Shown: positions 22,641 through 24,817 of the stretch, one piece after another
Numbering within the stretch: the first letter of the stretch is position 1
Layout: each line of letters opens with the position of its first letter
Assembly: GCA_007694115.1 (NCBI GenBank)
Contig: RECJ01000182.1
Coordinates: 1-33,407, forward strand
Reading direction: 5' to 3'
DNA from: Leptolyngbya sp. DLM2.Bin27
GTDB lineage: Bacteria; Cyanobacteriota; Cyanobacteriia; Phormidesmidales; Phormidesmidaceae
Length of the DNA: 33,407 bases
The notes under the pieces: model-generated
Databases searched by the model: none
What the model was told of the DNA's origin: nothing
The model's input: only the letters and a program-made list of their open reading frames with translations
Position numbers and translations under genes: made by a program

Positions 22641-23372
22641 CTAGACCTCGTGAACTGTCAACGGGTTGCCGGGAATGGCAATCAGCCCATCTCTGTAGAT
22701 ATGGATCAGGTTGCGCTGGCGGAGTTTGCCCATCAGTCGGGTGACGGTGACCCGAGTCGAACCAATGGCGCTGCCGATCTGAGCGTGGGTCAGTGCCCAG
22801 GGCAGATAGTACCCCGACTCACAGGGTTCACCAAACTCTTCGATCAACAGGGTGAGAAAGCCGAGCAGGCGATCGATGGTGCGCCGCTGCCCTAGGGTGC
22901 TGAGCCACAGCAGCTTGCGCTGGTGTTGATAGCGAAAGGCATCGAGCACCTCGCGGCGAAAGTGGGGCCAGTTGTCTAGGTCATTCCAGTACAGCCAGAT
23001 CACGGTGGTCTGGTCGACGTGGGCAAAACTCTGCAACAAAAATGGAGCCTGGGCCACAATCTCAAAGGGCTGCCCAGCCCCGACAAAGCCAAGAAAAGCC
23101 TCTTCGTTGAGGCCTATGGACAGGGGCGAAGCGCCCTCTTCGTCACTCACCTCAAAGTCAAGCTCTGGTTCTCCGTCGCTTGCTCCCTCAGCAGAGCCCA
23201 CCAACCGCACGGCGCCGCGCTCTACCAGGTAGAGCAGCCCAGATCGGGTGGGGATACGCTCGTTCTGGTTAAACGTTCTCGTCCGGTAGTGGGCGTGGGC
23301 CCAGTCAGTAATGCGCTGCCAAGTCAAAAATGGCCGGGCGTTATCAGAGGGAAGAGATGATTGCATAGCCAT
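22641..23372 (-). CDS. Crp/Fnr-family regulator with NtcA-like DNA-binding helix
   Basis: The product is 243 aa. The N-terminal part (about 25-150) is a cyclic-nucleotide-binding-like barrel with an acidic insert (EGASDGEPELDFEVSDEEG). After a long helix the winged helix contains LTHAQIGSAIGSTRVTVTRL (about 194-213). Its IGSTRVTVTRL core equals the recognition helix region of NtcA, which reads GTA-N8-TAC. The effector domain, however, does not read like NtcA (no matching 2-oxoglutarate pocket segments that I can see), and cAMP-binding residues of SyCRP1 are not obvious. I infer a separate Crp/Fnr paralogue that may share NtcA target sites. It starts at an ATG at 23372. It is convergent with rbcR, 37 bases apart. 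Confidence 0.85.
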   Translation of the reverse strand: MAMQSSLPSDNARPFLTWQRITDWAHAHYRTRTFNQNERIPTRSGLLYLVERGAVRLVGSAEGASDGEPELDFEVSDEEGASPLSIGLNEEAFLGFVGAGQPFEIVAQAPFLLQSFAHVDQTTVIWLYWNDLDNWPHFRREVLDAFRYQHQRKLLWLSTLGQRRTIDRLLGFLTLLIEEFGEPCESGYYLPWALTHAQIGSAIGSTRVTVTRLMGKLRQRNLIHIYRDGLIAIPGNPLTVHEV

Positions 23373-23665
23373 CAGTTGGATGAGAGGGTATGGGCCACGA
23401 CCAATTGAGGATCCCCGAGGCTAGGACGCGATCGCTCTGGCCAATGCCATTAGCAAAGGTCACAAAGCCTTCACAAGTCATCCAATACTAATACAGAGAA
23501 CCCGTAATTTCCCGGAGTCCTGCTAGCGATTGTGTTCTATCCCATTCGGAGGAGAGCCTAAACCCTAACCTGTCCCAGGGCATTTTTGGGCGATCGCCTC
23601 GGCCTACGTTTTTAACGATACCAAAACCTATAAGAAAAACTGTTCATTCAAACGGCCCCTAGGGG
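23373..23665. other. Intergenic region upstream of the Crp/Fnr gene, no gene seen
   Basis: The stretch has two HIP1-like sites (about 23429 and 23591), and no open frame with protein character. The Crp/Fnr promoter on the minus strand is presumably here. Just right of it, GGGGG-TGACAAT-CCCCC (23662-23678) overlaps the -35 box of the candidate small RNA. Confidence 0.55.
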
Positions 23666-23694
23666 GTGACAATCCCCCACAGTGGTCATATAAT
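23666..23694 (+). promoter_or_regulatory. Near-consensus sigma70 promoter of a candidate small RNA
   Basis: GTGACA (23666-23671) is five of six to TTGACA, and TATAAT (23689-23694) is a perfect -10 box, with the optimal 17-base spacing. The inverted repeat GGGGG-N7-CCCCC (23662-23678) covers the -35 box and could be an operator. No gene follows on this strand before the convergent hydrolase gene. Confidence 0.7.
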
Positions 23695-23700
23695 TCAAAT

Positions 23701-23768
23701 GTGTGAGGAGCGAACCAGAAGAGATGCCGAGACGAAACACGGCCAGTCGTCGGCATCTCTTTTGTTTT
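23701..23768 (+). ncRNA. Candidate small RNA of about 68 nt
   Basis: Transcription from the promoter at 23666-23694 should begin near 23701. The predicted RNA opens GUGUGAGGAG and then folds into a hairpin: AGAGATGCCGA (23720-23730) pairs perfectly with TCGGCATCTCT (23750-23760), extended inside by GAC/GTC. TTTGTTTTG follows, so the hairpin is a Rho-independent terminator on this strand only. An ORF of 62 codons crossing it is repeat-made and lacks a proper start. The 5' end is complementary to the CUCCUCACAC core of the cyanobacterial sRNA Yfr1 and also resembles a Shine-Dalgarno sequence. No known RNA family is assigned. Confidence 0.55.
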
Positions 23769-23802
23769 GTAGGTCATTTTCTCTGCTCTGGCCCCAGATC
23801 CT

Positions 23803-23847
23803 TGTGGGTTAGGCACATGTGGGTTAGGCACATGTGGGTTAGGCACA
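23803..23847. repeat. Tandem repeat, 15-base unit x3
   Basis: TGTGGGTTAGGCACA occurs three times without change at 23803-23817, 23818-23832 and 23833-23847. It lies in the spacer between the candidate small RNA and the 3' end of the hydrolase gene. No spacers separate the copies, so it is not CRISPR. Confidence 0.92.
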
Positions 23848-23887: not shown

Positions 23888-24817
23888 TTAGCTGTTTGAG
23901 CTAGCTTCTAGAGGGCGAGAGGAGGTCGCTAAAATCCCTCGCAGCGCTTTAGCCACCACCTGCGGCTGCTCAACCATGGCTAGGTGGCCGCAATTTTCGA
24001 TTTCGATGACCGTATTCTGACCCTGGCTCGATGACTTTAGATAGCTCGCCAGGTGGTTCACGTAGCGTAGGTTCATCACTTGGTCTTGACGACCGGCCAT
24101 AAAGTGTACCGGCTGAGTTAGCTCTGCCACCAGACGCGGTAGTAGGTGCACTTCGGCTTCGGTAGTCGACTCTAGCAAGCTGCCCAGGGCCGCTGCGCCG
24201 TCGGCTTGCAGCAGGTCAAGGCAGCGATCGCGCCCCCAGTCGTAGGCCAAGGGTCGGTGTACCATCATGCGGGTGAGCAGCAGCGGCAGCAGCGTGTGGC
24301 GCAGCCAGGGCCGTCGCCAGCCCACAATATACTGCCCCGCCTGGCGAAACTGCTGAAACTCTCGCTCTAGATAGAGGCCCCCACCCGAGTTCATGCACAC
24401 GACTCCCTGCACCAGCTGGGGAAAGCAGTGGGCCATCCACAGCGCCACACTGCCCCCCAGAGAGTGCCCCACTAGCCACACCGGGCCTAGCTTAAGCTGT
24501 TCGAGCAGGGCCGCTAAATCGCGGGCGTAGGCCCCCAGACCATAGGGCGACGTTGAGGCTCCCCAGGCCTGGGCAGCGGCGGGTATGCCTGGACAATGCT
24601 CTGCTAGGCCGTAGCGCGACTCACCAAACCCCCGCAGATCGTAGGCTAAGCAAAGATGGTCAGCACTGAGCTGATCGATCACGGGTTGCCAGTATTTGTG
24701 GCTGAGCAACCAGCCATGGATAAAAACCAGTGGAAAAGGTTGGCCCGCTGCCGTGAGCGGCCTATTACCGGCAAGTTGATAGTAGTGGGAGACGCCAAAG
24801 ACGGTGGTAGTGGCCAT
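23888..24817 (-). CDS. Alpha/beta hydrolase
   Basis: The product is 309 aa with the standard alpha/beta hydrolase layout. The oxyanion region is VFIHGWLLSHKYW (about 31-43), the strand-turn AYDLRGFGESRYG follows near 58-70, and the nucleophile elbow GHSLGG (Ser118 by count) lies after LGPVWLV. The acid is probably in the MAGRQDQVM segment and the catalytic His in IENCGHLAMVEQP. A lid region (about 145-215) is rich in Leu/Arg. No signal peptide is seen, so it is cytoplasmic. The substrate cannot be told. It starts at an ATG at 24817 and lies 43 bases downstream of the ACT-like gene on the same strand, a likely two-gene unit. Confidence 0.9.
   Translation of the reverse strand: MATTTVFGVSHYYQLAGNRPLTAAGQPFPLVFIHGWLLSHKYWQPVIDQLSADHLCLAYDLRGFGESRYGLAEHCPGIPAAAQAWGASTSPYGLGAYARDLAALLEQLKLGPVWLVGHSLGGSVALWMAHCFPQLVQGVVCMNSGGGLYLEREFQQFRQAGQYIVGWRRPWLRHTLLPLLLTRMMVHRPLAYDWGRDRCLDLLQADGAAALGSLLESTTEAEVHLLPRLVAELTQPVHFMAGRQDQVMNLRYVNHLASYLKSSSQGQNTVIEIENCGHLAMVEQPQVVAKALRGILATSSRPLEASSNS

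Follow-up and report, generated by a model that had tools for sequence, protein, structure and literature searches.

The window, a stretch of 33,407 nucleotides from Leptolyngbya sp. DLM2.Bin27, contains a gene-free gap of exactly 515 bases between two minus-strand genes, which is the size given in the initial annotation. The gap is flanked on the left by a gene for a Crp-type regulator (22641–23372) and on the right by a gene for an alpha/beta hydrolase (23888–24817), which is convergent with the small RNA (sRNA) gene described here and ends about 120 bases from it. Pfam matches only the C-terminal helix–turn–helix domain of the Crp-type regulator, and the nearest NCBIfam model, PtrA, scores 90 bits, far under its cut-off of 300; the gene adjoins Yfr2 in most genomes of the genus and is more than 1.3 kb distant in two (G001, G013). 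Directly 3' of the sRNA, at 23803–23847, the 15-mer TGTGGGTTAGGCACA is present in three perfect tandem copies. Both boxes of the promoter predicted earlier (GTGACA-N17-TATAAT) were found on the plus strand, and they agree with the consensus at 11 of 12 positions. Of 32 family loci, 31 retain the TGACA of this -35 box (GTGACA, 23666–23671) at the matching position, and 31 likewise have a TATA/TANANT-like element where the -10 box (TATAAT, 23689–23694) lies. The GGGGG-N7-CCCCC inverted repeat that surrounds the -35 box (23662–23678) had been put forward as an operator. It is perfect in only 3 of the 32 loci, with 4 of 5 pairs kept in 5 more, whereas the TGACA that it encloses is kept in 31; a role of this repeat as a conserved operator is therefore improbable, and we rejected it.

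The RNA that starts after this promoter is a Yfr2 RNA. A search of all Rfam models gave a match to RF01701 (Cyano-1) at 23697–23766, which covers the full model (1–69) with 46.6 bits for a gathering score of 41 and an E-value of 3.5e-5 for the whole window, and the family model R1 gave 105 bits. Cyano-1 was discovered through comparative genomics (PMC2864571) and corresponds to the Yfr2 family motif (PMC8400943). Members of this family have three published hallmarks (PMC2662882): the 5' end is conserved and unpaired, the central loop measures 12 nt, and a bulge lies four bases away from this loop. All three are present here, the 5' end being UGUGUGAGGAG. We conclude that 23700–23768 on the plus strand (about 69 nt, both ends being predicted, the 5' end at about the G of GUGUGAGG) is a Yfr2 gene, a further member of a known family whose link to Yfr1 has likewise been published already. 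The initial annotation thus correctly recognized a free-standing sRNA gene with a promoter and a terminator, but missed its membership of the Yfr2/Cyano-1 family. Neither Rfam nor the lineage model R1 found a second Yfr2 copy in the genome assembly, which is 86% complete, so that further copies of Yfr1 or Yfr2 may be missing from it; the one additional R1 match falls on this very hairpin, read on the opposite strand.

The RNA is composed of an unpaired 5' end, a linker and a long stem-loop. The 5' motif UGUGUGAGGAG (23700–23710), which corresponds to the (UG)UGUGAGGAG motif of Yfr2 RNAs, is invariant in relatives except for its first base (bases 2–11 are identical in 28 sequences), and the predicted probability of being unpaired is 0.73–1.0 for bases 1–10. 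Within it, GTGTGAGGAG (23701–23710) is the exact complement of CTCCTCACAC, in agreement with the complementarity to the Yfr1 core that had been pointed out from the sequence. The linker CGAACCAG (23711–23718) contains CGAACCA, invariant in the 28 sequences, in which GAAC is predicted to pair with the GUUC beside the Yfr1 core. The stem-loop (23719–23761) doubles as terminator stem and is followed by a conserved T-rich tract, TTTTGTTTT (23760–23769). The hairpin with a T-tract described initially is thus present, but the 11 pairs attributed to it are too few, as the best stem has 12 + 3 pairs, interrupted by a single bulged G (23749). This G lies after 3 pairs, four bases from the 12-nt apical loop GAAACACGGCCA (23734–23745), so that the RNA has the 12-nt loop on a long stem with a bulge at -4 that is typical of Yfr2. 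The hairpin escaped a simple terminator scan, since its loop of 12 is above the limit of 8 set in that scan. The loop is of the conserved GAAACANGGNNA kind; GAAACACGGCAA or GAAACAAGGAAA takes its place at most loci of other families.

Conservation places this feature far beyond chance: in addition to the RF01701 E-value of 3.5e-5, the RNA body is 98–100% identical across the genus, compared with about 40% at 100 bases on either side. Of 25 other genomes of the genus (Nodosilinea and allies), 24 gave one Yfr2 match each. In a sample of the phylum, almost every genome of its class has Yfr2, with one to eight copies each, and the genomes listed from outside the class have none. Like the promoter, the pairing of the stem is kept in relatives: in a set of 28 sequences, 13 of them distinct, 97.4% of the cells are paired, and compensatory changes of the kind that the initial annotation had proposed to look for are present, since 7 of the 15 pairs are altered on both sides. 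Covariation in the stem was 0.418, compared with 0.240 ± 0.023 after shuffling (0/500 shuffles reached the real value), and all slid registers were worse.

This pattern also bears on two other explanations of the locus. The hairpin might do no more than terminate a neighbouring gene, or might have arisen by chance behind a fortuitous promoter, an idea for which the nearby end of the convergent hydrolase gene (~120 bases) could be invoked. However, the conserved unit takes in the promoter and the unpaired 5' end, and the RNA is also kept in family loci where a look at the 1.5 kb taken did not find the window's neighbour genes; conservation already refutes this explanation, whose likelihood is practically nil. 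A bidirectional terminator was rejected as the minus strand has no U tract after the hairpin. Alternatively, GAGGAG could be the ribosome-binding site of a short protein gene with an ATG at 23724, encoding MPRRNTASRRHLFCFV, given that 13 bases separate GAGGAG from the ATG and that the frame is open in the genus. This explanation is very improbable: the family's other genera contributed 7 loci, none of which has the ATG, the changes in the stem keep pairing and not codons, and the frame crosses the terminator to end differently in each species. The loss of the ATG outside the genus refutes a conserved function of this short open reading frame.

The presumed partner is encoded in the same genome. 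We located Yfr1 by motif, structure and synteny on contig 232 (G000:C232:13514), where the core ACTCCTCACAC lies between two hairpins and trxA starts 394 bases downstream. The sequence ACUCCUCACAC is predicted to be unpaired (0.99–1.0) between the 5' stem-loop and the terminator hairpin, and the GUUCA that precedes the core is invariant in 20 Yfr1 genes. Pairing of the two RNAs was assessed in silico. Unconstrained duplexfold energies were uninformative (316/1000 shuffles were as low as the real pair) because this program ignores the molecules' own folds; we therefore used cofold differences, which give the pairing beyond these folds. The duplex prediction with the genome's own Yfr1 suggested by the initial annotation gave -21.0 kcal/mol, compared with -5.7 ± 3.0 for shuffled Yfr2, and none of 500 dinucleotide-shuffled Yfr2 sequences was as strong as the real one. 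Yfr1–Yfr2 pairs from 20 genomes, each tested with its own partner, gave -19.2 to -20.6 kcal/mol. The predicted pairing consists of 10 base pairs, a C-A mismatch, and then the GAAC of the Yfr2 linker with the GUUC of Yfr1; shuffling the linker only cost 2.7 kcal/mol on average, and 3/300 such shuffles attained the real value. These values predict that the Yfr1–Yfr2 pairing is strong and specific. Experiments on other cyanobacteria have detected the interaction: Yfr2 pulls down Yfr1 in Prochlorococcus (PMC6778093), and the Nostoc RNAs bind each other in gel shifts (PMC6974561).

Complementarity to Yfr1 is also found in front of porin genes. In the assembly, five sites carry the 10-mer CTCCTCACAC or its complement, a number that is not above chance (three for the reversed control), and all five can be assigned: Yfr2, Yfr1, two OprB/SLH porins and one DUF11 surface protein. 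Both porin genes, one of which scores as por_somb (iron uptake porin) in an NCBIfam scan, carry GGTGTGAGGAG directly before the start codon as ribosome-binding site, and therefore Yfr2 looks like a target mimic. Tandem porins with this GGTGTGAGGAG site recur genus-wide, and cofolding of Yfr1 with the two porin mRNAs gave -11.3 and -17.7 kcal/mol. Complementarity of the porin sites by itself is weak evidence for targeting by Yfr1, because GAGGAG is itself a ribosome-binding consensus and the 10-mer count is not above chance; the weight of the porin argument comes from the positions of the sites and their conservation in the genus. The DUF11-type surface protein gene (G000:C134:10581, L098, minus strand) has a perfect Yfr1-complementary 10-mer 18–27 bases before its GTG start and is a candidate new Yfr1 target. 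Two more gene families of the genus have GTGTGAGGAG before their start and are likewise candidate targets: a short membrane protein (MLIGFLISVVILAISLLIISKIPPIGVEIDS...; L182, L201, L202, L222) and a protein that by eye resembles phytoene/squalene synthases (L184, L195, L224).

In conclusion, family membership, conserved structure, promoter, an own Yfr1, complementarity and porin sites were all observed here, and we propose, with a probability of about 0.93, that the gene is the single detected Yfr2 of this genome, has its own promoter, and is likely to act as a decoy of Yfr1 that frees porin and envelope mRNAs. The early guess of a pairing with Yfr1 or mimicry of its mRNA targets is supported by conservation, by the genome's own Yfr1 and by the ribosome-binding sites of the porins, the pairing itself being predicted. 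In the model that we favour, a sigma-70-type promoter would drive a separate transcript of about 69 nt, made of an unpaired 5' end and a long hairpin that would serve as terminator. The 5' end (GUGUGAGGAG) would copy the ribosome-binding site of porin mRNAs and, as a decoy, would bind Yfr1 via 10 + 4 base pairs; titration of Yfr1 would then relieve its block on porin and envelope mRNAs, and additional targets may be reached through the conserved loop. By analogy with other cyanobacteria, we infer that the RNA is transcribed, binds Yfr1 in the cell, releases its targets and is induced by high light or nitrogen shortage. Yfr2 is expressed as an abundant, light- or nitrogen-responsive RNA of about 65–95 nt in Synechocystis, Prochlorococcus and Nostoc (PMC2662882, PMC6778093, PMC6974561), and the Yfr2a promoter of Synechocystis is very strong and stimulated by light (PMC2662882).

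A different division of roles is conceivable, in which Yfr2 would mainly act on mRNA and antisense targets of its own via the 12-nt loop, and pairing with Yfr1 would chiefly protect it or switch it off. The loop and the top of the stem are as invariant as the 5' motif, and the Prochlorococcus Yfr2 turned out to have numerous own targets and to be cleaved by RNase E unless bound by Yfr1 (PMC6778093). However, co-expression of Yfr2 in E. coli restored a porin reporter repressed by Yfr1, so that Yfr2 is able to neutralize Yfr1 (PMC6778093), the linker found here adds pairing to Yfr1, and both directions of control are compatible with each other. We consider it somewhat unlikely that action on its own targets is the main function, and retain the Yfr1 decoy as the preferred reading.

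The upstream region of the gene contains two elements that may be relevant for its control. The box ATAAGAAAAACTG (23630–23642, plus strand) lies about 70 bases before Yfr2, and 27 of 32 family loci have its ATAAGAA at a distance of 70–72 bases upstream of the RNA, in surroundings that are about 40% identical. It is absent from the Yfr2 loci of other families, except one with a reversed copy. The form ATAAGAAA(AA)CTG of this box is also seen at the same position in L032–L053, L084, L085, L087, L090, L091 and L093. The other element is GTGACA, the most enriched upstream hexamer in a class-wide sample (22 of 46 Yfr2 loci for 1.8 expected), which in the present lineage is the -35 box. Many Yfr2 loci of the other subtype have TGTCAC/T 51–56 bases before GAGGAG, and in some of them it faces a GTGACA about 16 bases further up. 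TGTGACA/TGTCACA elements are found about 50–71 bases before GAGGAG in L229–L268 and L026–L083, and form in some loci an inverted repeat, roughly GTGNCAGTTN4AAACTGTCAC. In Prochlorococcus, Yfr2 is known to have a GntR regulator. The subtype with linker CGAACCAG, and mostly with loop GAAACACGGCCA, was seen in about 10 families. A joint reading of these observations, doubtful as a whole, would be that a distinct Yfr2 subtype exists in these ~10 families, that its linker CGAACC became invariant because the Yfr1 pairing gains four base pairs through GAAC (14 instead of 10), and that the TGTGACA-type element, known from upstream of many other Yfr2 genes, falls within its -35 box, where a bound regulator would repress and not activate.

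This work reveals no new kind of regulator, and the essentials are already explained; it places the Yfr1–Yfr2–porin circuit known from Prochlorococcus and Nostoc in a whole filamentous cyanobacterial lineage, and names details that can be tested, namely linker pairing and two conserved upstream elements. The RNA resembles the Yfr2 family (Yfr2-5, Yfr2a-c; RF01701), present in nearly all cyanobacteria, by its 5' UGUGUGAGGAG, 12-nt loop, bulge four bases off, terminator stem and own promoter. It differs by its loop, GAAACACGGCCA compared with the GGAAACAAGGAAA type of the RF01701 consensus, by its fixed linker CGAACCAG, whereas the Yfr2 linker was called unconserved in the original description (PMC2662882), and by the single copy detected here and per genome of the genus, compared with up to nine in others; with one detected gene per genome, a clean deletion would be simpler to obtain than in multi-copy species. 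With Yfr1, its pairing partner, and Yfr10/Syr5-like RNAs, it has a complementary core in common, but Yfr1 carries CUCCUCACAC between two hairpins and Yfr2 carries the complement at its 5' end. Enterobacteria have sponges or target mimics, such as the chb mRNA decoy of ChiX, and SroC for GcvB. The likeness lies in the principle, the imitation of an mRNA target site by an RNA, which thereby titrates an sRNA; an Hfq step as in enterobacteria is no part of the case proposed for Yfr2, the sequences are unrelated, and Yfr2 has a gene to itself, with a promoter and a terminator of its own.
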